A model generated the notes under the pieces. The model ran no database searches. It was not told where the DNA came from and was given only the letters and a program-made list of their open reading frames with translations. The position numbers were made by a program, and so were the translations under genes. From a virus: a stretch of DNA of 64,000 nt. Location: the IMG/VR virus record IMGVR_UViG_3300019360_000008, positions 18,883 through 82,882 of that record. The stretch is one strand, 5' to 3'. Of this stretch, positions 17,122-63,998 are shown in pieces. Each line of letters begins with the position of its first letter. Position 1 is the stretch's first letter.

Positions 17122-19552
<2,431 letters not shown>

Positions 19553-20311: not shown

Positions 20312-20983
20312 ATGAAACAGTATATCAAACTGTTGGGAGATGTCATGACCAAGGGTTATGACGATGTTCTCACCAATCCACTCATCGGAGAAGTTCGCCA
20401 GGTTATTGCGCCGCAGCTAAGGTTTGATCTGGCCAAAGGCTTCCCGCTGCTAACCACGCGCCCCCAGGACTTTGAGAAGCTCCGGGACGAGGCGCTCAAC
20501 ATTATGCATGCGTCAAATGCCCAGGACGTCGTCCGCGGCATTACGACAACCCAGGAAGACCGGACGTTCAACGTGCCGGTCACGGACGGAATGCCCGTCC
20601 GATGCGAAATCATCAACGAGGGACACGAAATACACTGCATCTTGTCTTTAGACTCTGTCGATGTTGTGTCCGGATTGCCTCGCGTCATCGCCCTTTATGC
20701 CATCGTGGTTCGTCTGCTCAGTCGCGAATCTGTGGGACGCTATGACGGCACATTGGTACTGAATATCGGCCGCGCGTTCGTGCGCCACAAGGACTTCAAG
20801 CTGGTAAACACGCAGATAAACCGCAAGCCCCTGAAAATGTGCAAGCTGCAGTTCAATCCGGAGCGCTCTAGCTACAAGGACTCAGTGCCGGACGACCTTA
20901 CGATTGTCGATTACATCTATCACGACGAAATCGATGAATTGACGGGTCTAGCGCTAAACAAAACAGATGGAGTTAAATCCTGA
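20312..20983 (+). CDS. Thymidylate-synthase-like protein lacking catalytic residues
   Basis: A 223-residue protein clearly related to thymidylate synthase: the N-terminus MKQYIKLLGDVMTKG and LRFDLAKGFPLLTT match the family start, and residues 107-184 (ILSLDSVDVVSGLPRVIALY, RAFVRHKDFKLVNTQI, LKMCKLQFNPE) match the C-terminal half. About 90 central residues are missing; the dUMP-binding RTGTGT loop is replaced by NPLIGEV and the catalytic Cys position aligns with Met (near residue 95). It cannot be a normal TS. A regulatory, structural or new catalytic role is possible. Confidence 0.75.
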   Translation: MKQYIKLLGDVMTKGYDDVLTNPLIGEVRQVIAPQLRFDLAKGFPLLTTRPQDFEKLRDEALNIMHASNAQDVVRGITTTQEDRTFNVPVTDGMPVRCEIINEGHEIHCILSLDSVDVVSGLPRVIALYAIVVRLLSRESVGRYDGTLVLNIGRAFVRHKDFKLVNTQINRKPLKMCKLQFNPERSSYKDSVPDDLTIVDYIYHDEIDELTGLALNKTDGVKS

Positions 20984-53404: not shown

Positions 53405-53840
53405 GCGGCGCATTCGCAAAATTGCTCAGCTTCCCGAAGATGCTCCTGACCAAGTAGGTGAGGGCGTAGAGCAAGTTTTACCCTCAGACGTTCCGAAGGG
53501 ACGTAAGCGTAAGCGCAGTACCGTTACGGAAGAGGTTGTTCCGAATGTCGTTTCCCTAGACCCGCAGGCCGAATGGGTGGATGCGCCCACTATGGTGGAT
53601 CAGATCAAGGACGAGAGTGCCTGGAAGACCGACCGGCAGGAAGTCAAGGTCTACAATCTGAGTGACGATAAACAACTTGCAGAGTACAATGCGCTGCTGA
53701 CTCGCTGTGCGTCGCCAAGCACGAACTGCTTCGTCATTAGCGAGCAGTCAAAATTCGCGCCTACGCTCGGTACCTGGTCGAGCCTGGTGAAACTGCAGTA
53801 CGTGAAGTACCGCAAGATGCTGAAAATTAAAAAGTCATGA
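53343..53840 (+). CDS. Hypothetical protein, 165 residues
   Basis: A Pro-rich, basic N-terminal region (~1-65) is followed by a compact domain. Possibly a scaffold or linker. No family recognised. Overlaps flanking genes. Confidence 0.5.
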   Translation: MDTPIPLSNPQPLPSDVPAFKRRIRKIAQLPEDAPDQVGEGVEQVLPSDVPKGRKRKRSTVTEEVVPNVVSLDPQAEWVDAPTMVDQIKDESAWKTDRQEVKVYNLSDDKQLAEYNALLTRCASPSTNCFVISEQSKFAPTLGTWSSLVKLQYVKYRKMLKIKKS

Positions 53841-55204
53841 ACACTAAGCAGTCCGCAGTAGATTGGCCCACAGTACTTAAACTTCTGGGGGGCGGAGCCG
53901 CTCTCGGCAGCGGCGTCGGCGCGGCATCGACCCTAGTGAAATACCTGAAGGGTATGCACGATAAAGCCAAGGCCAAAACGGATACCAGCCTCGACGACGA
54001 CATACTATACCTGGACCTTCCGGCGCCGGTCAGCCAACGAGGAGTCAAACGCGCAAATGAAGGTCAGGGATCCCCGGGCACATTGGCCGTTGGTACGCTC
54101 GGCTCCATGCTGGGCGCCTACTTGGCCTATAACGCCGTACGTGGCGCCTATTCGTCAGTCAAGCGCAAGCAATTGCAAGCCGAGCTGGATCGAGCCCAGC
54201 ATGCCTATTTGGGCGGATTACAGAATCAGGCACAGCTAGCCAAGACGGCTTCCCAGTTTTCCGGCATCAATAAGTTGGTGGGTGGAGGTTACCTCGCTGG
54301 TCTTTTGACCATCTTGGGCTCGGCCGTGCTGGCCAATAAGTTACTTCAGAAGCAATTCCCTGATCGCGTTCCTCGTAACCCACTTCAGCCCCGCAAGATC
54401 GTGATCCGCACCATGCGTAATCCTGAAGGTGTGGATAAGGAAGTGCCGGTCGAAGCTCTCGGCAGCTCTCCTGACGCTACTGAAAATTTACTACGGCTCA
54501 GTCTGGCCAACGAGAAGTCGGCCGCCGCTTGGGGCCTCACAGACCTCGTGGCTGCCGCCGCACAAGGTCGTTGCCAAGAGATCAAGCGTGCGTGCGTCGA
54601 GGCCGGCCCTGACGCGGCATTCGAGATTTGCAAAGGCGCGAGCGACCGTGAGTACAATAATCTTCAGGGTAACTTGGCCATCAGCTGGCTGGCTCATGAC
54701 CCAATTATGTCGCAAATGATTGAACCACACCTGGCTGCACAATTCGTGCAGGACAGTCCGACGTTCGCCAAGGCCGCTTCGGCCCTGCTGGATGACCCGA
54801 CGTTCGACCGCGGCATGCTTGAAGACTTGGTGGGGCTCACCGAAGTGGTGAACCGCGAGATCCGGGGGCAGTCGTTCGAACCAGTCATCGAACAGCTCGA
54901 TCGTGTCAAAGTGGCGGCGGCCCATCGAGGTCATCGCTCGATGCTGGGACAGACCCTCGGCGACAAGCTGGTAGTGGCCGATGCGATCTCCAGCCTTCTC
55001 AACCGCGTGAGCGATCAGAATCAAGATGGCGGCCACCAGGGCGGCACCACATCAGCTCCGTCTTCCCGGGACTCTGAGGAGGTCGTCCATAAGTCCAGGC
55101 GAAAGGCTCGTCCGACAACGTTTCGTGTCGAAGACCAGGTGGCCCAAGGATTCTTGGAACAGAACCGCGATTTGATCGATGAAGCTCTCAGCGCGGTGAA
55201 GTGA
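53837..55204 (+). CDS. Large virion-type protein with glycine-rich hydrophobic segments
   Basis: A 455-residue protein with hydrophobic Gly/Ala segments at ~15-35 (GGGAALGSGVGAAST), ~82-100 and ~155-175 (GGGYLAGLLTILGSAVLA), then a long helical, charged C-terminal half ending in a Ser/Arg-rich tail. It is the last gene of the virion block. May be an internal or ejection protein; not proven. Confidence 0.5.
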   Translation: MNTKQSAVDWPTVLKLLGGGAALGSGVGAASTLVKYLKGMHDKAKAKTDTSLDDDILYLDLPAPVSQRGVKRANEGQGSPGTLAVGTLGSMLGAYLAYNAVRGAYSSVKRKQLQAELDRAQHAYLGGLQNQAQLAKTASQFSGINKLVGGGYLAGLLTILGSAVLANKLLQKQFPDRVPRNPLQPRKIVIRTMRNPEGVDKEVPVEALGSSPDATENLLRLSLANEKSAAAWGLTDLVAAAAQGRCQEIKRACVEAGPDAAFEICKGASDREYNNLQGNLAISWLAHDPIMSQMIEPHLAAQFVQDSPTFAKAASALLDDPTFDRGMLEDLVGLTEVVNREIRGQSFEPVIEQLDRVKVAAAHRGHRSMLGQTLGDKLVVADAISSLLNRVSDQNQDGGHQGGTTSAPSSRDSEEVVHKSRRKARPTTFRVEDQVAQGFLEQNRDLIDEALSAVK

Positions 55205-55270
55205 GCTTGTCAGCTCACTGACTCGTGTCGCATTAAAAGTTTAGCAATTAGCTACTTCTGCATTTACCTG

Positions 55271-55303
55271 CCCGCCGGTTTAAGCGCCGGCGGGTTTTTA
55301 TTT
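55271..55303 (+). terminator. Strong rho-independent terminator at the end of the virion block
   Basis: CCCGCCGG (55271-55278) and CCGGCGGG (55287-55294) with TTTTTATTT. The upstream 55205-55270 holds only a weak hairpin near the stop. Confidence 0.9.
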
Positions 55304-55708
55304 ATGGCCAACTACTACACGGAAGCCTCTTCCGAACGTATCGTCCCATGCACGCATGACCAATATCAACGACTTTCAGAAATACTCCAAGACTCCGCTA
55401 ATCAAAGCGAGGACCCTCACGACTTCATGGTCGAATGGATCGAAGCTCATAACGATGACCCTGCCGGTTTGTATCTTCGCAGTGTTGGCGCTGGCTTTGC
55501 TGAGCCTTACCACCTTCCTCTATGTTTTCGCGTTGAGCTCGGCAAACTCCTCACCGAGGCGAACCTCCCGTACCTGACCATTGGGCTTGCCTTCATGTGC
55601 GAGAAGAATCGATTGAATTCCCACGGAGGAGAAACCGTACGCCTGTACCCCAACGGTACCGTTGTCAGTCCGTCCCTGGTATGGCCCATTCAGGTACCGG
55701 ACCCATAA
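55304..55708 (+). CDS. Hypothetical protein, 134 residues
   Basis: First gene of the accessory region, starting right at the end of the terminator T-tract. No recognised domain. Contains a CTHDQYQRLSEILQDSANQS stretch typical of helical sequence. Confidence 0.5.
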   Translation: MANYYTEASSERIVPCTHDQYQRLSEILQDSANQSEDPHDFMVEWIEAHNDDPAGLYLRSVGAGFAEPYHLPLCFRVELGKLLTEANLPYLTIGLAFMCEKNRLNSHGGETVRLYPNGTVVSPSLVWPIQVPDP

Positions 55709-55714
55709 TGACTT

Positions 55715-56176
55715 ATGAAATTTGGTACCCCAATTAGCGTCGTCAACAGCAAGGAGACTGGTGATGCTCCTAAGAACAAGTTCAATGTCTCCAAGCGGGA
55801 GGATCGGACGATAGACGGCGTCGTGTTCGACTCCAGGCTGGAGATGAACTGCTACCTGTACCTGAAGGAGCAGGGAATACCATGCGAGCTGCAGCCGTCA
55901 TTCGAGCTGCAGCCCAAATTCGAGCTGAATGGGGTGAAGTATCGGCCGATCTCTTACGTGGCCGACTTCCGCATAACGATTGCCGGGCATACGTACATCG
56001 TGGACGCCAAGGGCATGCGGACTCCGGACTTCAAGATGAAGTTGAAGCTAATGGCCTGCATCCACAAGGTGCAGATCGTCGAGGCTGGCTCGGTCAAGAA
56101 GTTGAGGCTATTCGTCGAGGCCGCCCGCAAGGGGTTTGTTGTTCCTGAAAAGGTCATCGCGCCCCCTACGACATGA
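55715..56176 (+). CDS. DUF1064-type PD-(D/E)XK nuclease-like protein
   Basis: A 153-residue protein matching the DUF1064 pattern found in phages: FDSRLEMNCYLYLKEQGIP, a variable insert, YVADFRITIAGHTYIVDAKG and TPDFKMKLKLM. The acidic residue in FDSRLE, the Asp in YVADF and the Asp and Lys in VDAKG line up as a PD-(D/E)XK site. It may act on branched DNA or on host or rival DNA. Confidence 0.75.
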   Translation: MKFGTPISVVNSKETGDAPKNKFNVSKREDRTIDGVVFDSRLEMNCYLYLKEQGIPCELQPSFELQPKFELNGVKYRPISYVADFRITIAGHTYIVDAKGMRTPDFKMKLKLMACIHKVQIVEAGSVKKLRLFVEAARKGFVVPEKVIAPPTT

Positions 56177-56219
56177 GACAGATACAAGTAGCTAGCCAAA
56201 CCATACACCTGACAAACTG

Positions 56220-56615
56220 ATGCAAAATACGATTCTAAATAACCTGATAGCTTTAACCGAGAAGGCGCTTAAGGCTATACCCAAAGCGCTGCGAAAGCGG
56301 AAATGGTATAAAGAGCTCACGCAGGTAGCCCTGGAGGCCCGCGGCGAGTTCGACTTTGTCGATACGCGCGCTGAACTCAAGGCCCGGTACGTAGATTATG
56401 CTCAGGATAACTTGGAGCAAGAGGGCGAGATAGAGTTCGACGACGATGCCGAAGTCTCCCTCAGCGACGACGGCGGCGCCTACGTACAAGCCTGGGTCTG
56501 GGTACCTGCAGGTGGCGCCGGCATGTGCAATGGACAGGACTGTCACGAGCCCCTCGACGACGGGGAAGGATTTGACGGTAAATGCGTCAACTGTATCAGC
56601 AACAGAGCTCGTTAA
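56220..56615 (+). CDS. Hypothetical protein with a C-terminal zinc-knuckle-like region
   Basis: A 131-residue protein. The C-terminus has CNGQDCHEPL ... GKCVNC, which could bind zinc. The N-terminal part is basic and helical, the centre acidic. Followed by the iterated CAAATCGTCAG region. Confidence 0.5.
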   Translation: MQNTILNNLIALTEKALKAIPKALRKRKWYKELTQVALEARGEFDFVDTRAELKARYVDYAQDNLEQEGEIEFDDDAEVSLSDDGGAYVQAWVWVPAGGAGMCNGQDCHEPLDDGEGFDGKCVNCISNRAR

Positions 56616-56618
56616 ACC

Positions 56619-56680
56619 GGACAAATCGTCAGCAAATCGTCAGACCAAACGGACAAATCGTCAGACCAAACGGACAAATA
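56619..56680 (+). repeat. Iterated CAAATCGTCAG motif
   Basis: CAAATCGTCAG occurs at 56622-56632, 56633-56643 and 56654-56664, with a partial copy at 56675; a longer 21-base unit starting ACCAAACGGACAAAT also repeats. It lies directly before the gene at 56714 and could be an operator array or replication iteron. Confidence 0.75.
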
Positions 56681-56713
56681 GTTAAGTCCGGGAAGCACTT
56701 AGAAATCAGTGAA

Positions 56714-57025
56714 ATGACACGCAAGATACGCTACGAGATCCTGGTGCCGCTACGGTTTAACGATGGATCCCAGGTCCCGTCATACCTTCACGATCGGACT
56801 GTGGACGAGCTCACCAGCATATTCGGCGGCTGCTCCATGCATGCCTGCTCCGAAGGTGTTTGGAAAGATGCAGGCGTCATCTACCGGGATACCAACCGTA
56901 CGATCGTTGTAGACGTCTACGAGTCCATTTGCACCGCGACCTTAAGGGCGATCCAGGACACCCGCAAGGAACGCTACCAGCAGCACAGCATCTATATCGT
57001 CCATTACCCAATCGAAATCCTATGA
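56714..57025 (+). CDS. Hypothetical protein, 103 residues
   Basis: Begins at ATG 56714 after the iterated repeat; the frame is open upstream but that part is repeat-derived. No recognised domain. Sequence suggests a small alpha/beta protein. Confidence 0.5.
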   Translation: MTRKIRYEILVPLRFNDGSQVPSYLHDRTVDELTSIFGGCSMHACSEGVWKDAGVIYRDTNRTIVVDVYESICTATLRAIQDTRKERYQQHSIYIVHYPIEIL

Positions 57026-57261
57026 TTGAAGTCGAGATCCGAATCGACGCCGGCGTTGCTTCACCTGTCGAAATACCTGAAGGGGTCAGTCTGACCATCA
57101 AGGACTTCGACGTCGACAGCGACGACCCGTCGACATTATTTGTCAATCCAACCTGCGGTAGTTGGTACCGCCAGGTCCGTTTCACGTCCGAAGGGCAGTT
57201 CAAAGTTACACCTGACCCTTCCCAATCAGCTGCGGCACAACTCGAAACTGAAAATGACTAA
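57022..57261 (+). CDS. Hypothetical protein, 79 residues
   Basis: Starts in an overlap with the previous stop. Beta-rich (MIEVEIRIDAGVASPVEIPE). Overlaps the HD protein start by 8 bases. Unknown function. Confidence 0.5.
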   Translation: MIEVEIRIDAGVASPVEIPEGVSLTIKDFDVDSDDPSTLFVNPTCGSWYRQVRFTSEGQFKVTPDPSQSAAAQLETEND

Positions 57262-57925
57262 GCATACCTACGGCGACCTCGTCGCACTCATCGATGCCAA
57301 CCTGAGCGACCCTCTGGCCAAGGCCCTCGTCTGGTTCCTTAGCGGTCTTAAAGGTCTGCCTGATGCCCCGGCATCCGGGGCCCTACGGTACCATCACGCC
57401 TACAACGGCGGCCTGATCGATCACATCGTGGACGTGTTCAAGATCGCGGTCGACTTGAATACCACCCGGACCGCCAACAGCCCGGTCCCTCAGATACATC
57501 AAGAAGAGATCTTGTTGGTGGCCGTCCTGCACGACATCCACAAGGTACAAGACGCCAGTGGAAACATTTGCTACGTTCCTAACATATTGAAGTCCGGGAA
57601 GCGCAGCGAGGCCGAGCCGTTCGAGAAATCGGCCCGGTACCTCACTCAGCCGTCGGATACGCCGTCGGCAAGTTCTGTCGAGCGCGAATTCCTCTACCGC
57701 GAGGCTGTGGACCGAATACCCGGCGGCATCAAGAGCCTGGCGCTCATCAAGGCCCTGGCCCCTGATCTCTTCGCTGCCCTGAGCGATGACGTGAAGCTCG
57801 CCATCCGGTATCACGACGGGGCCTACGCGCATAGCAAGTACGAGCTGGCCGGCAAGGAAACGCCGCTCATGATCTTGCTACATTGCGCCGATATGCTCAG
57901 CAGCCGGCTTAACCGACTTAAGTAA
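57254..57925 (+). CDS. HD-domain phosphohydrolase-like protein
   Basis: A 223-residue protein with metal ligands placed as in HD hydrolases: His in YHHAYNGGLIDH, HD in VAVLHDIHK, a further His in IRYHDGAY and Asp in LHCADMLSSRL. It would hydrolyse a nucleotide or a signalling molecule. In a phage accessory region, degradation of defence second messengers or nucleotide-pool adjustment are the natural hypotheses. Confidence 0.75.
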   Translation: MTKHTYGDLVALIDANLSDPLAKALVWFLSGLKGLPDAPASGALRYHHAYNGGLIDHIVDVFKIAVDLNTTRTANSPVPQIHQEEILLVAVLHDIHKVQDASGNICYVPNILKSGKRSEAEPFEKSARYLTQPSDTPSASSVEREFLYREAVDRIPGGIKSLALIKALAPDLFAALSDDVKLAIRYHDGAYAHSKYELAGKETPLMILLHCADMLSSRLNRLK

Positions 57926-57931
57926 TTCAGT

Positions 57932-58243
57932 ATGTTGACATTCCAACCACATCCACATCCCGAGGCAGCCGCCGAGGGTCTTATGGTCTGCTCCATCGAA
58001 GGCTGTGTCATCGGTGGTGTCGGCAAGACCCAGGAAGAGGCCGTGGGTAACTTCGTCGCGTCGATCAACCGCCGAGAGGCCCTATACCAGATGTCCGTGC
58101 AGGGATGCATGATCGTCGAGAACCGGGCGCCACTGCCGGGCCACGTGCCCAATCAGCCGACTCCTGGCCGGGAGCCCCTGATCCTGCCGGCCGGCGTCAC
58201 CCCGGAGCAGTTTCAACGTATCAAAGAAAACGCCAAGGTATGA
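57932..58243 (+). CDS. HicB-like small protein
   Basis: A 103-residue protein whose N-terminal part (MVCSIEGCVIGGVGKTQEEA, then VGNFVASINRREALYQ) has the beta-beta-alpha layout and T-x-EEA motif of the HicB antitoxin fold. There is no HicA toxin next to it. In phages single HicB-like proteins are common, with unknown role. The C-terminal part is Pro-rich. Confidence 0.5.
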   Translation: MLTFQPHPHPEAAAEGLMVCSIEGCVIGGVGKTQEEAVGNFVASINRREALYQMSVQGCMIVENRAPLPGHVPNQPTPGREPLILPAGVTPEQFQRIKENAKV

Positions 58244-58455
58244 GCAAAACCCCGATTAGACGGATCTGGTCAGCTTCGACCCTCGTCCTGCTTGCCGTCA
58301 CGTTCGGCTCCTTGCTGGGCGTCTACTCGGCCTGCAAGCCGCTTCGGTGCCCAACGCCACCAACCGTCAGCCAATGCTCAAATTCCGATGAATCTACCCC
58401 GACTCAAACGACTTCTGGACCACTGCCGACAACGGCCGGGCCTGAAACATTTTGA
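58240..58455 (+). CDS. Single-pass membrane protein, 71 residues
   Basis: Basic start (MSKTPIRRIW) then a hydrophobic segment (LVLLAVTFGSLLGVYSAC) with a Cys at its end and a Thr/Pro/Ser-rich tail: an N-terminal anchor or, with the Cys, a lipoprotein-like sequence. It overlaps the next gene by 68 bases in another frame. Confidence 0.5.
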   Translation: MSKTPIRRIWSASTLVLLAVTFGSLLGVYSACKPLRCPTPPTVSQCSNSDESTPTQTTSGPLPTTAGPETF

Positions 58456-58843
58456 CTTTAACGTTATCGCTAAATCACACCCATGCGGGACCGCCGGTTG
58501 CCTGCTGGGCGAGATGGCTTACTGCTGGCCCGACCGGTTCAAGCTGGTAATGGCCTGCAGCACCGTCCCGATTGGCGCCCTGGTGCCAATCGGTACCGAT
58601 CACGCTACCATTCGGCACTATAAGTGGGAGACCGTCGTCGAGCGGGCCATCCGGTTGGCCGCCGCTTGGTTCGAGATCGACTATCTGGATGCCAGATGGT
58701 TGTTCATGCCGAACGAGACCTACCGGACCCATCCGAACCTGCCCGACAGTAACTTGAAGACGGACTCCACCCTGGAGGACGTGCTGCTCAACCTAGAAAG
58801 CTACATCAAACGCCATGACCCGGCAAAAAGCCCTAGATCGTAA
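58388..58843 (+). CDS. Conserved-looking phage protein, 151 residues
   Basis: Starts at ATG 58388 inside the previous gene. The segment FDFNVIAKSHPCGTAGCLLG, followed by EMAYCWPDRF, is a pattern I recall from phage and bacterial hypothetical proteins (CGTxGCxxGE). Possibly metal binding through Cys. Function unknown. Confidence 0.55.
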   Translation: MNLPRLKRLLDHCRQRPGLKHFDFNVIAKSHPCGTAGCLLGEMAYCWPDRFKLVMACSTVPIGALVPIGTDHATIRHYKWETVVERAIRLAAAWFEIDYLDARWLFMPNETYRTHPNLPDSNLKTDSTLEDVLLNLESYIKRHDPAKSPRS

Positions 58844-59231
58844 CTGGACCCACTTCGTAACCGACCAACACCCCAAGTGCATGTTGCCATCCGGACACTG
58901 CACGTATGGCACCCCAGACGGCCAGTGCTGCGGGATCGGCATCTTGTTTAGCCCGGAGCTGCGCGGGACTTTGCAGAATTGCAACATGCCGGTAGATAGG
59001 CTAGAAGGTTTGCTCGCCCGACTGGCACCCCATTGCTTACCGGAGTACCTGCGGCTCGTCCAGGAATGCACCATGCCGTTCCTGCTGGACCTGCAGGCCA
59101 TCCACGACAACATCGTGACCGACCAGGACACGCTGGACCAGTGGCCGGCCCATGTTCAACTACAGCCCTTTCAGTTCATGCTGGCACTGGAGCGGCTGGC
59201 GGCCCGTTGGGGGCTGGTCTGTCCGGGGTAA
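58815..59231 (+). CDS. Conserved-looking phage protein, 138 residues
   Basis: Cys-rich N-terminal part (CMLPSGHCTYGTPDGQCCGI) followed by helices; same general type as CxYGDGxxCxxGxL proteins in phages. It overlaps the preceding gene by 29 bases. Unknown function. Confidence 0.5.
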   Translation: MTRQKALDRNWTHFVTDQHPKCMLPSGHCTYGTPDGQCCGIGILFSPELRGTLQNCNMPVDRLEGLLARLAPHCLPEYLRLVQECTMPFLLDLQAIHDNIVTDQDTLDQWPAHVQLQPFQFMLALERLAARWGLVCPG

Positions 59232-59480
59232 AGGCCACGGGGCCCCGGGGGCCCCAGATCCCACGGGGCCTGCCGGGCCTGCCTGCCCGGTAGCCCGGAT
59301 GGCCAATACGGTCCCGGCGCCATTACGGGATCAAGATGGCGCCGGGCCGGACGGTAAGGTTTTGACAAATCTAAATGTTTATCGTTAAAGTTATTACAAC
59401 CACAACAACTTACGCATACTCATCATGGCTCGTGAGGGCTATCTGGTTGCCGTTGGGCGGTTGTCGTGATACAGTGCAAA
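59232..59480 (+). promoter_or_regulatory. Gene-free GC-rich palindromic region and promoter
   Basis: Contains the palindrome GGGGCCCCGGGGGCCCC (59239-59255), a perfect 11-base inverted repeat CCCGGCGCCAT/ATGGCGCCGGG (59313-59323, 59336-59346), and an AT-rich part with TTGACA (59362-59367) and TTATCGTTAAA (59379-59389), the reverse complement of the repeat near 25.2 kb. A reading frame crosses it but ends quickly and has odd composition, so I do not call a gene. Confidence 0.55.
59447..59475 (+). promoter_or_regulatory. Predicted promoter for the nucleotidase gene
   Basis: TTGCCG (59447-59452), 17-base spacer, TACAGT (59470-59475) with an extended TGA just in front. The ATG at 59481 is five bases after the -10, so the message is leaderless or nearly so. 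Confidence 0.45.
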
Positions 59481-60056
59481 ATGAGCACAAAACGTAGAAT
59501 CTTCCTCGACCTCGACGGCGTAATCGTGAACTGTAACAAGTCAGCCGCACGAGTATATGGGGTGGCGTACCCTGAGACTGGTGTCTTGGGTTTCGACTGG
59601 GTAACCGGAGCTTACAATGCTCTGCACCCCGACGCCCCGGTCTCCAGCGGCGACTTTAGCCGCATTGTCGCTAAGGATCCGACCTTTTGGTCAACGACCG
59701 AATGGTTCCCCTGGGCAGATCAGCTTGTCGGATTTCTCGAAGACGGCTTCCCGGGTCAATGGAATTTTTTGAGTCATTGCACCAGTTACCCTGAGTGCGC
59801 CTCTGGCAAGTTTAAGCTCCTGCTGGACAAGTTTGGCCAGAATGTTGCTAAACGAGCCATTTTCAGCTTCGGCCCCAAATGGGTGGTCTGCAAGCCGGAC
59901 GACATCCTGATAGATGATCGGGAGCGTAATTGTGATGAATGGGAAGCCGCCGGAGGCTTAGCCTACCAGTGGCGTGAGATCGGGGACCGTCACCCCGAGG
60001 CCCAGATGCAACTTCAAGAATGCCTGCGATTCCTGCAGGACCATAACAATGTCTGA
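59481..60056 (+). CDS. HAD-family 5'(3')-deoxyribonucleotidase-like protein
   Basis: A 191-residue HAD hydrolase. Motif I is FLDLDGVIVN with the nucleophile Asp, motif II FLSHCTSY (Ser/Thr), motif III region with Lys, and motif IV ILIDDRERN. The cap insertion and length resemble the NT5C type that dephosphorylates deoxynucleotides. It would adjust the dNTP pool. I placed the start at ATG 59481 rather than GTG 59466 because the promoter -10 lies between. Confidence 0.78.
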   Translation: MSTKRRIFLDLDGVIVNCNKSAARVYGVAYPETGVLGFDWVTGAYNALHPDAPVSSGDFSRIVAKDPTFWSTTEWFPWADQLVGFLEDGFPGQWNFLSHCTSYPECASGKFKLLLDKFGQNVAKRAIFSFGPKWVVCKPDDILIDDRERNCDEWEAAGGLAYQWREIGDRHPEAQMQLQECLRFLQDHNNV

Positions 60057-60483
60057 ACCCCTATCACTCTCCGCAGCCTTCCAGGGCGTAGTTGACCGCA
60101 TCAACGCCCTGGATACCCAGGAGCAAGCCGCCGGAGGCTTGGCCTACCAGGGGATTCTTCGGGAAGCCAACCAGATCAACGCCGAGATGCTCGGGATCGT
60201 CGAGCGGCTCGCTATGGCGGTATCGACCGTCAACGCGACAGCCAAGCAGGTGATCCGGGGGATCGGACAGCTAAAAGGAAGTCCCGAGGGCGATCGCCGT
60301 GCGACCGCCTTGGCTACCGCTATCGACTTGTTCGGTATGTCCAATGAGGCTTTCGCCGACGAGATCGCGTTCTCCGAGCGCATCAATCAGCTGGTCAGCC
60401 AGAAGATCCTGGTCGACGCCGGAGTCAATCCAGAAGACCCGGAGGCGGTCAAACGGTTCGTTGAAACCAACTTGAATAGATGA
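60049..60483 (+). CDS. Hypothetical protein, 144 residues
   Basis: Starts in an ATGTCTGA overlap with the nucleotidase stop. Helical with an SEPLSLSAAFQGVVDRINAL start. Residues ~27-34 read AAGGLAYQ, the same peptide found in the nucleotidase, from a 26-base near-identical DNA stretch. The rest resembles coiled helices. Unknown function. Confidence 0.5.
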   Translation: MSEPLSLSAAFQGVVDRINALDTQEQAAGGLAYQGILREANQINAEMLGIVERLAMAVSTVNATAKQVIRGIGQLKGSPEGDRRATALATAIDLFGMSNEAFADEIAFSERINQLVSQKILVDAGVNPEDPEAVKRFVETNLNR

Positions 60484-60545
60484 ATACCTTGCTCGCCGCC
60501 ATCGGCGAACCACTCACTAAGGACCAGGCTGCCAATGGCCACTAA
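60480..60545 (+). CDS. Possible 21-residue peptide
   Basis: Reads MNTLLAAIGEPLTKDQAANG and ends with His. It has an ATGA overlap upstream and overlaps the next start downstream, which is the only support. May be a coupling leader. Confidence 0.25.
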   Translation: MNTLLAAIGEPLTKDQAANGH

Positions 60546-60732
60546 ACGCCGTCCTTCCAGGCTCCAGCAGATCCGTCAAGCTCTCGCTGACTACATGCAG
60601 GCTGAAGGTTGCAGCTGTTGCCGGAACCACGAAGCGCATGCGGCCAGTAAGGCCATATTGGCCAAGCTGCTCAAGGTACCTGGGTACCGTGACGGCTTTG
60701 GCTATAACTTCAACAAGTTCAAATCCAAATGA
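60535..60732 (+). CDS. Small basic protein with CSCC motif, 65 residues
   Basis: Pattern LADYMQAEGCSCCRNHEAHA with KLLKVPGYRDGFGYNFNKFK, which I recall as a small conserved phage protein of unknown role. The Cys cluster and His may bind a metal. Followed by ATGA-coupled membrane protein. Confidence 0.6.
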   Translation: MATKRRPSRLQQIRQALADYMQAEGCSCCRNHEAHAASKAILAKLLKVPGYRDGFGYNFNKFKSK

Positions 60733-60920
60733 CTAGCTTTATCCTCGTCTGTCTCGCCCTCATCTACTGTGTCGTTGTAGCCGGCATGATCTCTCCCAGC
60801 TTTCCATCCGCGGAGATCTCAAGAAACTTGAGGCACCGGTCGGCAACCGCCGCGTGGATCTTCAACGTGGCGTTCGGCGTCGTGATCCTGATCCTCATCA
60901 TCGCCCTATTCTTCCTGTGA
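60729..60920 (+). CDS. Small membrane protein, two spans
   Basis: Hydrophobic segments FILVCLALIYCVVVAGMI and WIFNVAFGVVILILIIALFF with a short basic connector predict two transmembrane helices. Its last bases overlap the GTG start of the next membrane protein. Confidence 0.55.
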   Translation: MTSFILVCLALIYCVVVAGMISPSFPSAEISRNLRHRSATAAWIFNVAFGVVILILIIALFFL

Positions 60921-61123
60921 AAGCCGACATCAAGCTCTCCGACAACCTCACCGGGTTGCTGCTGTTCGTGTTCGTCATCAGCTGGATCACCCTGATCTCG
61001 ATCCTATACGACGGCACACCTGACCTGTACGACGTGCTGCTCAACAGGATCTCTGATGGGCAGGTTGAGATCCCGGCATCCAAGGGCAGCAACTCCACGG
61101 TACCCGAATTCAAGTGCAAATGA
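60917..61123 (+). CDS. Small single-pass membrane protein with GTG start
   Basis: 68 residues with one hydrophobic segment (NLTGLLLFVFVISWITLISI). The GTG overlaps the previous stop (GTGA). The two membrane proteins are probably made together and may interact; role unknown, lysis control or superinfection exclusion possible. Confidence 0.5.
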   Translation: MKADIKLSDNLTGLLLFVFVISWITLISILYDGTPDLYDVLLNRISDGQVEIPASKGSNSTVPEFKCK

Positions 61124-61142
61124 GCCAGAGATATAGCTTAGT

Positions 61143-62003
61143 ATGAACAAATACAAATTTACCAAAAATACCAGATCGCTGCCAAATGGTACAAAATTGT
61201 ACCAGATCAAGAGACTGTCGGACGGGATGTTGGGAGGGTGGGTTCAGTCCGAGAAAAATCTTTCCCAGGAGGGGAGTTGCTGGATTGCCGAAGATGCCAA
61301 AGTCTTCGAAGACGCCCGCGTCTTCGGCAATGCTCATGTCTACGGCTATGCTAGCATTTATGGTAATGTCCACATCTGCGGACATGCTCGCATCTTCGGC
61401 GAAACCATCATATCAGGTAGTGTCATCATTACTGAAAATGCCCAAATATACGGTAACGCTCGAGTGTACGGTGATGCCGTTGTCAACGGTAACGCCCGAG
61501 TGTACGGTGATGCCGTTGTCGGCGATAACGCCCGATTGCACGATGATGCCAGTGTCTACGACAATGCCGTAATCCGAGACAACGCTAAAGTTGGCGGTTC
61601 CGCCCGGATCTTCGGTAATGCCAAACTCTATGATCATGCCAACGTTCGCGGTACCTCAGAAATATGCGGCGACGCCTGTATCTTAGCTTGCGTTAATTCA
61701 GGAAATTGGGCGCGCAGCCCAATCGTCATACGTGGCATTAAACACTCGCTGGTCGAATCAGGCCCGGGCCTTATTAGCATCGGATGCGAGACACGCTCTT
61801 TTAAGGACTGGCTACGTAACTACCGGTCTATCGGAAGGGCCAATGGGTATTCTCATGAGGAGATTAAGTTATACGGCAAGTGGATCAAGACAGTCGTCGA
61901 TTACGCGAATGGGTATTCTCGTAAGGAGATTAAGTCATACAGCAAGTTGATCAAGGCAGTCGTCGATTACGCGAAGAGATTGGGCCAGTTCAATACCAAG
62001 TAA
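61143..62003 (+). CDS. Left-handed beta-helix (hexapeptide-like) repeat protein
   Basis: A 286-residue protein. After an N-terminal region (TKLYQIKRLSDGMLGGWVQS) come about 25 short repeats such as NARVYGDAVV and NGNARVYGDA, typical of a left-handed beta-helix; the type is annotated as polymer-forming or YdcK-like in bacteria. The C-terminal ~100 residues contain a tandem 22-residue repeat (NGYSHEEIKLYGKWIKTVVD, then NGYSRKEIKSYSKLIKAVVD). TATAGC lies just before the ATG as a -10 candidate. Function unknown. Confidence 0.75.
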   Translation: MNKYKFTKNTRSLPNGTKLYQIKRLSDGMLGGWVQSEKNLSQEGSCWIAEDAKVFEDARVFGNAHVYGYASIYGNVHICGHARIFGETIISGSVIITENAQIYGNARVYGDAVVNGNARVYGDAVVGDNARLHDDASVYDNAVIRDNAKVGGSARIFGNAKLYDHANVRGTSEICGDACILACVNSGNWARSPIVIRGIKHSLVESGPGLISIGCETRSFKDWLRNYRSIGRANGYSHEEIKLYGKWIKTVVDYANGYSRKEIKSYSKLIKAVVDYAKRLGQFNTK

Positions 62004-62014
62004 ACCAATAAGAA

Positions 62015-62584
62015 ATGAACCAGGTGCTTAGACTCAAGCGGTGGCTTGAACGTCATGAATGCCAGGATGTCCGCCCCGTAAAGGTGACCTTCGGCACGCC
62101 CCGCAAGAGCGTCACGGAGGTCTTCGAGGGCTGTGTCTACCGACGCGTCCTTACCTACAAGGCTGGCATGATGGCAGTGACGCACGGCGAAGCCAAGGTG
62201 GGCGACACCTACACGGAGTGCTCGTGCTACCTGCTGGGCGAACGGCCCGCAGCCAAGCAGCCGAAGAAGAACAGGCGTCACGACAAGACCTGCTTCCACC
62301 ACGTCAGCGGCGTAGACTGGTACGTGGCCTGCTACATTGAAGCTGCAGCCATCACGCCCCGGATCTCCGCGTCCCATCCGTTCGGCCCCTCATTCATCAT
62401 TACGCCCTGGACGCATGTGGACAAGATCGATGCCGGGGAGTTCAAACGCCGTCGTCACGTCCCATACAGCCGGTTCCCCATCGGGTTCGACATCGACATG
62501 ACGGAATACGAACAGGCCGAGAACTATGCGCAAACGAACCATCCCCAAACAGCACCAAACCAAAGTCGCCTTGCAGACGCTTAG
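62015..62584 (+). CDS. Hypothetical protein, 189 residues
   Basis: Alpha/beta protein with a His/Lys-rich segment (PKKNRRHDKTCFHHVSGVDW) in the middle. No recognised family. Overlaps the next gene by 59 bases. Confidence 0.5.
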   Translation: MNQVLRLKRWLERHECQDVRPVKVTFGTPRKSVTEVFEGCVYRRVLTYKAGMMAVTHGEAKVGDTYTECSCYLLGERPAAKQPKKNRRHDKTCFHHVSGVDWYVACYIEAAAITPRISASHPFGPSFIITPWTHVDKIDAGEFKRRRHVPYSRFPIGFDIDMTEYEQAENYAQTNHPQTAPNQSRLADA

Positions 62585-62792
62585 GCTCAATCCAGCAATG
62601 GTGGGCGTGATGGGCGGAATGACGGTCGATGAAGCGGTAAAGCACCTACTGAGCGTCGGATACACCGAGGCCCAAGTAAGAAAGCTGTCCGGCAAGGAAG
62701 AACAGACCGAGCCACACCCCTCTGGACTCTCAGGCGAACACAGCGTTGTACTCGATGCGATCCAGGCATGTTGCCTTGGAGGCGGCGATTAA
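62526..62792 (+). CDS. Small protein with GGMT-type motif, 88 residues
   Basis: The segment LNPAMVGVMGGMTVDEAVKH, then LLSVGYTEAQVRKL, resembles a UBA-like helical motif that I recall from phage hypothetical proteins. The rest is polar. Function unknown. Confidence 0.5.
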   Translation: MRKRTIPKQHQTKVALQTLRLNPAMVGVMGGMTVDEAVKHLLSVGYTEAQVRKLSGKEEQTEPHPSGLSGEHSVVLDAIQACCLGGGD

Positions 62793-62866
62793 CCACGTCC
62801 AACCTACCCGAAGAGATAAGAGCAAAACACATGAGCGTGGAGCTACCGTCGGGCTGAAAGGCTCGT

Positions 62867-62888
62867 GCGCGGCCCCGCGCTTTTTCTT
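62867..62888 (+). terminator. Predicted terminator
   Basis: GCGCG-GCCC-CGCGC (62867-62880) followed by TTTTTCTT, in the short gap before the 62910 gene. Confidence 0.7.
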
Positions 62889-62909
62889 CAACCCACAATT
62901 AACCGCATT

Positions 62910-63332
62910 ATGGCCGATTACTTCACCTACTTCAGCATCATCTTCACTCTGCCAAATCCCGAGGCCCAGAGTTATGCGCTGCAACTCGCCAAGCAGGCCG
63001 GCTGTATCCGGCAGGGCGACGAAGCGCCCGGCGACTTTCCGAAGGAACTCGCGGCCGTCATTGAAAACTGGTCGTTCGAGACGGAGGCCGACATCTACGG
63101 GGACCGGCCGGCCATCTGGCTGCATTCCAGCTACGGCGGCATGGATGCCGTCTGCGCCTTCCTCCAACACCTGCTCCTGCGATTCGATCCGCAAGGCCGG
63201 GTCACGTTCGAGTGGTCGCACGACTGTTCCAAACCGCGCACCGATGTCTATGGCGGCGGCGCAGCCATCGTCACCGCCACTGAAATCAAAACCATGAGCA
63301 CATGCCAATGGTTGAACCAACACACCGCGTGA
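62910..63332 (+). CDS. Hypothetical protein, 140 residues
   Basis: I place the start at ATG 62910 after the terminator. A compact alpha/beta domain (VIENWSFETEADIYGDRPAI), acidic. No recognised function. Confidence 0.5.
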   Translation: MADYFTYFSIIFTLPNPEAQSYALQLAKQAGCIRQGDEAPGDFPKELAAVIENWSFETEADIYGDRPAIWLHSSYGGMDAVCAFLQHLLLRFDPQGRVTFEWSHDCSKPRTDVYGGGAAIVTATEIKTMSTCQWLNQHTA

Positions 63333-63357
63333 GTTCCCATCTCAATTCAAGATCACT

Positions 63358-63606
63358 ATGCCAAAATATGTTTGTTCGTATGCCCACGACATCGGTTGTT
63401 TCGCCGACTTTGTCGTGACGGCCAAGAATGAGAATGCCGCCTTGCGCCTCATCAAAAAGGCGCTGCGCGAAGGAGCGTTCCAGGACGTGAATGCCGAGCC
63501 GTGCTGGGAGAACGGTTCCACCAACGAACGAGTGCTTGTCCTGGGTCCGGCCTCCGAGTACTCGACCAACGTTACCCTCGAAGAGTTGACCGACTCGGCC
63601 GATTAG
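63358..63606 (+). CDS. Hypothetical protein, 82 residues
   Basis: Small alpha/beta protein (MPKYVCSYAHDIGCFADFVV). No recognised domain. A 71-base gap follows without a clear feature. Confidence 0.5.
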   Translation: MPKYVCSYAHDIGCFADFVVTAKNENAALRLIKKALREGAFQDVNAEPCWENGSTNERVLVLGPASEYSTNVTLEELTDSAD

Positions 63607-63677
63607 TCCGGAAAGCAAACAGGCTGGCGAGGTAGCTGACCAACGCACACATCTACCAGATCATCAAATACGTCATT

Positions 63678-63998
63678 ATGAAAACTGAAGTCTACGTGCT
63701 GGCCATCCACAACCCCATATCGGGCAAGATAACCGTCACCGCCCGGGCAACCCGGGCCGAGGTATGCCAGCTTCTCCTCGACAACACCGGAGTTGAGTTC
63801 TGGCACGGAGAGTCTCGCGACAAGGCTGCGAAAGCCGTGAAGGACAATCAGCTCGACGTATTTGAGGTCCTGGCCGGCAACCACCTGATGCTTGGCTTCG
63901 AGATCACAAAGGTGCCGCTCGAAGTCACTGATCCGCTCGTGTCCAAGCTGCGTGCCGAGATCAAGGAGCTGAAGCGCAAACGCAAGAGCCGCCGATGA
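63678..63998 (+). CDS. Hypothetical protein, 106 residues
   Basis: Alpha/beta N-terminal part (MKTEVYVLAIHNPISGKITV) and a basic coiled-coil-like end (LRAEIKELKRKRKSRR). It is complete and stops two bases before the end of the window. Confidence 0.5.
   Translation: MKTEVYVLAIHNPISGKITVTARATRAEVCQLLLDNTGVEFWHGESRDKAAKAVKDNQLDVFEVLAGNHLMLGFEITKVPLEVTDPLVSKLRAEIKELKRKRKSRR

Follow-up and report, generated by a model that had tools for sequence, protein, structure and literature searches.

The DNA analysed here, hereafter the window, is a 64,000-nucleotide stretch of the IMG/VR virus contig IMGVR_UViG_3300019360_000008 (bases 18,883-82,882 of a contig of 82,882 bases), and our subject is an island of short genes at its 3′ end, at window positions 55304-63998. 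The island opens directly after a terminator-like hairpin on the + strand at 55270-55295 (10 pairs, 8 of them G-C, followed by a T-rich tail), terminator-like sites being 25 in number between 46000 and 64000 against 17.7 (standard deviation 4.6) in shuffled sequences, and it stops at 63998, where the 3′ end of the window coincides with the end of the contig. Between these limits, short open reading frames (ORFs) of the + strand are densely packed: the initial annotation had described a run of more than 20 short genes, and we modelled 22, all on the + strand and covering 93% of 55304-63998, about 20 of which are likely genes. Among them are a DUF1064 nuclease (gene 2), a predicted PII-fold protein resembling S-adenosylmethionine (SAM) lyases (gene 4), an HD hydrolase (gene 6) and a HAD-type nucleotidase (gene 12). 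The stretch is the start of a lineage-variable locus that lies, in a group of uncultivated tailed phages, directly behind a conserved portal-module gene and a core DUF1064 resolvase, and whose contents, as far as similarity can be detected, differ almost wholly between relatives.

The contig is that of a tailed phage, as it carries a large terminase, a NAD-dependent ligase, a thymidylate synthase, an SbcD-like protein, helicases and a primase; one of its other proteins matches family A DNA polymerases, and its portal-like protein is related to those of Vibrio and Salmonella phage records of about 180 kb. An overlap between the contig ends was looked for and none was found, and a DNA-level search of phage records with the last 14 kb of the window gave no matches. 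Searches against PHROGs and Pfam covered 20 of the 22 models (all except genes 11 and 22), while NCBIfam and PADLOC were each searched with 10.

Conservation of the locus among relatives

Gene 2 (55715-56176) encodes the PD-(D/E)XK-type nuclease that the initial annotation had recognised. It matches DUF1064 (PF06356) well over threshold (Pfam E-value 6.5e-21, 75.4 bits for a curated cut-off of 24.7) as well as the PHROG 190 family of Holliday junction resolvases (6.9e-31), and we see no notable difference from either. For comparison we used seven viral contigs retrieved through a portal protein search (47-58% identical), two of which (L007 and L008) have near-identical scores in the locus comparison and are probably near-duplicates. 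Gene 2 is a core phage gene and not an accessory one, because in all seven relatives it is kept directly after the same upstream gene, a homologue of the gene at 53837-55204; PF06356 is above its cut-off in all eight contigs. Judging from its family, the enzyme would most likely cut branched replication intermediates ahead of packaging.

The rest of the island behaves differently. Conservation of the HD and HAD genes is limited to the nearest relative (L003), where they show 37% and 30% identity and stand in the order DUF1064-HD-HAD, and the remaining 19 of the 22 models have no tblastn match at an E-value of 0.01 in the loci of the seven relatives. Relaxing the threshold to 0.1 over wider stretches of the relatives adds two weak matches, to gene 1 (0.004) and gene 4 (0.041). 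Six of the seven relatives (L004-L009) carry two to four tRNA genes each after DUF1064 (Arg, Ile, Pro, Met and Leu among them), and none was found in the window or in L003. The description of the island as accessory is thus apt for most of its genes and wrong for the nuclease, the one island gene that is core in all relatives. Core conservation, which the initial annotation had named as evidence against its proposal, therefore applies to the nuclease but to none of the other genes.

How far the island stands out from the rest of the genome was assessed by counting detectable genes. The ORF sets counted are longest-ORF calls, some of them false. Within the syntenic stretch of contig G001, the nearest relative, 8 of 14 upstream ORFs were detectable against 3 of the 22 island genes (Fisher p 0.0097); in two more distant relatives the counts were 21/72 against 1/22 (G003, p 0.020) and 17/72 against 1/22 (G007, p 0.062). 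Restricting the comparison to genes of like size, however, takes away from the contrast, as the island is then not significantly less conserved in either G003 (7/45 versus 1/22, p 0.26) or G007 (5/45 versus 1/22, p 0.66). The island is therefore variable, yet not clearly more so than other small genes of this phage group.

In the longer relatives, long runs of small genes follow DUF1064 (at 48-120 kb in G007 and 0-44 kb in G003), and the island may be just the start of a larger region. The variable locus of L003 also contains, at 18229-19350, an ORF of 373 amino acids (aa) that, by inspection, is presumably a TnpB/OrfB transposon nuclease; small opposite-strand ORFs near the tRNA genes of L004-L009 are, likewise by inspection, presumably HNH-like.

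A SAM-lyase-like protein encoded by gene 4

Gene 4 (56714-57025, 103 aa), which the initial annotation did not name, matches PHROG 3543 (1.3e-5), the Pfam family PF23780 (S-AdoMet_lyase; E-value 0.0026, 18.2 bits, missing the curated cut-off of 28) and, weakly, PHROG 2226 (0.034). By sequence it is related to hypothetical proteins found on plasmids, chiefly rhizobial with a few others, and to proteins at 39 bacterial genome loci (L036-L074), mostly of rhizobia, with Bacteroidota, Planctomycetota, Verrucomicrobia and others also represented. Gene 4 was aligned with 31 of these 39 loci, picked for spread and not for outcome; PF23780 matches 3 of the 32 aligned proteins at E-values up to 1 and is the sole Pfam family matching more than one of them. 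The bacterial family itself is without a Pfam name; across the 32 sequences FGG, GxW and an Asp are invariant, and a Gln (Q90 in gene 4) is near-invariant, being present in 31.

A structure model of gene 4 built from this alignment has a mean predicted local distance difference test score of 85.3 and a predicted template modelling score of 0.73. Compared with the PDB by Foldseek, it finds three chains at E-values of 0.001 or below, namely the designed cage 4zk7, human CutA1 and the phage SAM lyase 6zm9 (8.6e-4), and the SAM lyase entries 9lqe and 6znb come next, among CutA1 entries. A search of BFVD places a Vibrio phage protein annotated as a SAM hydrolase at rank 38, behind unnamed or uncharacterised phage proteins. 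The model thus predicts for gene 4 a PII/CutA-like fold, probably of the kind seen in phage SAM lyases, and the protein would most likely form a PII-like trimer with SAM or a related nucleotide bound between its subunits.

The active-site positions were compared in a second alignment of 14 proteins, comprising gene 4 with two of its relatives from phages and five from bacteria, and six T3-type SAM lyases, the latter picked for spread and not for outcome from 511 phage records with T3-like matches. The paper on the phage SAM lyase Svi3-3 reports three residues strictly conserved among the aligned SAM lyases (SAMases), discusses Gly56, Tyr58, Glu69 and Gln104 as ligand-binding, and describes activity as nearly abolished by the E69Q and E69A substitutions (PMC7877911). 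In our alignment G48 and Q90 of gene 4, the counterparts of Svi3-3 G56 and Q104, are invariant in all 14 proteins, and position 50 is aromatic throughout, including in the six SAM lyases. Gene 4 is like Svi3-3 (6zm9, 6znb) and the T3 SAMase in its Gly, aromatic and Gln positions and probably in its predicted fold; it differs from them in being shorter and in carrying an Asp in the column of the catalytic Glu (E69 in Svi3-3, E68 in T3). A further possible likeness, by positional analogy, is to the SAM-AMP lyase of type III CRISPR systems and the candidate AcrIIIB4 (PMC12255297), in a PII-like fold with an acidic residue at the end of the T-loop and a Gln in the B-loop; that paper states that the catalytic Glu and the Gln are the only residues structurally kept between SAM and SAM-AMP lyases. 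There too the T-loop ends in Glu whereas gene 4 has Asp, the positions being drawn through an alignment with SAM lyases only.

PHROG 2226 is labelled "SAM-dependent methyltransferase" and matches 7 of the 14 aligned proteins, at best with 6.4e-54, and the T3 SAMase gene (NC_003298.1, 901-1359) is annotated with the same words, unlike the description of the T3 enzyme as a SAM lyase in the Svi3-3 paper (PMC7877911).

Further searches with gene 4 returned little. Scans of viral contigs yielded no relatives, either with the single protein or with alignment A1, and sequence searches of the PDB with gene 4 or its profiles gave chance-like matches. PF23780 and PHROG 3543 had no match across this contig and the seven relatives, in a search that was evidently too blunt since hmmscan does match gene 4. 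DNA methylases, which would clash with the destruction of SAM, had no match in the contig with PF01555 or PF00145, a weak indication given that the contig is a fragment.

The HD and HAD enzymes

Both of these enzymes had been recognised in the initial annotation, and both are borne out by the profiles. Gene 6 (57254-57925, 223 aa) matches PHROG 5889 (5.6e-22) and has a YhaM-type HD domain; searched against the PDB, its profile finds the YhaM 3′-5′ exoribonucleases as nearest solved relatives (9h3f, 6.3e-4), the likeness lying in the HD motif region, and H47, H57, H93, D94, H187, H210 and D213 are invariant in the four sequences aligned. Gene 6 is however shorter than YhaM (321 aa) and falls far under the cut-off of the full-length NCBIfam YhaM family (18.7 bits for 460), and it would most likely be a stand-alone phosphodiesterase of the YhaM HD type. 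Scanning viral contigs with the single protein found no relatives, and alignment A8 found only a contig that was already known; a related protein adjoins the clamp-loader genes in phage Dp-1. An AlphaFold model of gene 6 was poor (mean score of 51, from two sequences) and was not used.

Gene 12 (59481-60056) resembles 5′-3′ deoxyribonucleotidases of the HAD superfamily, matching PHROG 2643 at 2.3e-10, though the Pfam family NT5C is reached at 0.21 only and its cut-off is missed. The gene shares with its L003 homologue the DLDG and DD motifs, which we take to be catalytic. Its relatives occupy 30 phage-contig loci, one of them in the known contig G001, so that we regard it as a common phage nucleotide enzyme, most likely a deoxyribonucleotide 5′ phosphatase. 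We rejected the idea that gene 12 and the other island genes move together, the 29 other HAD loci being without another island gene (E-value 0.01) and PHROG 5889 being unmatched in all 12 contigs tried behind the 30 HAD loci. From their families, nucleotides or short RNA would be the most likely substrates of genes 6 and 12, in a takeover of host nucleic acid metabolism.

Interpretation of the locus

Taking the stretch as a whole, we consider the following reading probable: a core resolvase followed by gene content that varies between lineages, in which genes 2, 4, 6 and 12 would have the roles suggested above. The region lies directly after the portal module on the same strand, and other small genes of this phage are poorly conserved too, so it could be asked whether we are looking at a core late programme for virion assembly that has merely diverged beyond recognition; given that the relatives carry tRNA genes and unrelated small ORFs at the same place, and that HD and HAD enzymes are not known as virion families, we find this very unlikely. 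The initial annotation had instead proposed counter-defence, and a cluster given over to anti-defence, in which a number of the unknown genes would inhibit host defence systems, would fit an island of small, lineage-specific genes with one SAM-lyase-like protein, at a place where the content of the relatives changes as well. The enzymes on which that proposal was built are nevertheless core or metabolic, and they lend counter-defence no direct support, because the nuclease is of a core recombination type, the HD protein has its closest match in YhaM-type HD domains and the HAD protein is a common nucleotide enzyme. Known inhibitor families are absent among the matches of the island genes in Pfam and PHROGs (20 models) and in NCBIfam (10), and PADLOC, whose library holds defence proteins and not inhibitors, gave no match for any of the 10 island proteins (of 22) searched. 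The named enzymes do not turn the island as a whole into an anti-defence region, and we judge such a cluster quite unlikely; what survives of the proposal is a hypothesis for gene 4.

Gene 4 is the best counter-defence candidate of the island, the T3 SAMase being a known counter-defence protein (PMC7877911), and as a hypothesis it could destroy SAM or SAM-AMP and so blunt SAM-dependent restriction, bacteriophage exclusion (BREX) or type III CRISPR signalling, a role that we put forward tentatively. Several observations weigh against it. Position 59, Glu in all six SAM lyases, is Asp in the eight other proteins of the 14-sequence alignment and in all 32 of the larger one, and a change from Glu to Asp at the catalytic position could well abolish the reaction. 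Both SAM-lyase profile matches (PF23780 and PHROG 2226) are weak and below threshold, and profile-profile comparison by hhalign of the 32-sequence alignment with the six SAM lyases is not significant (E-value 0.12, probability 0.5%; 0.041 with alignment A1). VIA-align places CutA1 (Z 8.1) level with or ahead of the SAM lyases, whose 7.3-7.6 is under the tool's caution line of Z 8, a level which may reflect just a common arrangement. With 39 bacterial loci the family is no phage speciality, and in codon usage the reading frame of gene 4 itself comes narrowly behind another (0.136 versus 0.143). Since hhalign is not significant, PF23780 matches 3 of 32 members and Asp replaces the catalytic Glu, we call gene 4 SAM-lyase-like and do not class it as a SAM lyase. 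Its spread over several bacterial phyla, the top rank of CutA1, the Asp and the hhalign result would all suit an ordinary PII/CutA-like ligand-binding protein without lyase activity, of a family common to bacteria, and we give this alternative a little better than an even chance. It accounts less readily for PF23780 being the sole Pfam family to match more than one member, and for the acidic and Gln columns falling on the two residues described as common to SAM and SAM-AMP lyases (PMC12255297). A bolder form of the lyase hypothesis, in which gene 4 belongs to a broad PII-like enzyme family of phages and bacteria with Asp in place of the SAM-lyase Glu, and serves this phage by breaking down SAM, or a signal built on it such as SAM-AMP, so that methylation-dependent or type III CRISPR defence is disarmed, seems to us unlikely. 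The comparison corrects the choice of genes worth testing, as the nuclease is core and gene 4 resembles cofactor-destroying counter-defence enzymes. Were the Asp-type family active, a function would follow for dozens of bacterial hypothetical proteins and the SAM-lyase group would extend well past phages and CRISPR loci; were it inactive, the island would be a usual variable phage region.

Other genes of the island

The codon usage of the phage favours the annotated frame in 18 of the 22 models, the exceptions being genes 4, 8, 11 and 19; models 8, 11 and 19 are doubtful, whereas gene 4 misses by little and has relatives by sequence. Gene 11 (59375-59497, 40 aa) is probably no real gene, and another frame is favoured for both gene 8 (58240-58455, 71 aa) and gene 19 (62526-62792, 88 aa). 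The annotated frame of gene 1 (55304-55708, 134 aa, of unknown function) is best by a hair; the gene has no PHROG match below 0.1 and no Pfam match. Three convincing small membrane proteins were identified by hydropathy, in agreement with the three or four first announced: gene 8, with one hydrophobic segment, gene 15 (60729-60920, 63 aa), with two, and gene 16 (60917-61123, 68 aa, GTG start), with one. Gene 7 (57932-58243, 103 aa) had been called HicB-like, and this assignment is unsupported, no PHROG or Pfam family matching it at E-values up to 1 and PF15919 being unmatched in the contig.

Gene 17 (61143-62003) encodes a beta-solenoid of the YdcK/hexapeptide type, alike to such phage proteins by PHROG 5070 (8.3e-65) and matching PF18836 (1.3e-13), although its 79 bits against the NCBIfam YdcK_fam are under the cut-off of 350; with relatives in 68 phage records it is a common phage protein. 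Gene 3 (56220-56615, 131 aa) belongs with PHROG 6739, a family of unknown function (7.8e-11). Gene 5 (57022-57261, 79 aa), which overlaps gene 4 by 4 bases and has no PHROG family, gene 9 (58388-58843, 151 aa; top PHROG 13468, 0.0047) and gene 10 (58815-59231, 138 aa; PHROG 17693 only, 0.012) are of unknown function, as are genes 13 (60049-60483, 144 aa), 14 (60535-60732, 65 aa), 18 (62015-62584, 189 aa), 20 (62910-63332, 140 aa), 21 (63358-63606, 82 aa) and 22 (63678-63998, 106 aa), the last of which runs to the contig end and was outside all family searches.

Across the contig, Shine-Dalgarno sequences are not enriched before gene starts (4 of 56 genes, for a background of 10%), nor are they in the relative G001 (1 of 38, for 9%); in both, the sequence upstream of starts is A-rich instead, and the host may come from a group making little use of Shine-Dalgarno. 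The thymidylate synthase, at 20312-20983 of the window, is a 223 aa ORF whose best Pfam stretch is the C-terminal part of the profile only (positions 158-261 of 266).

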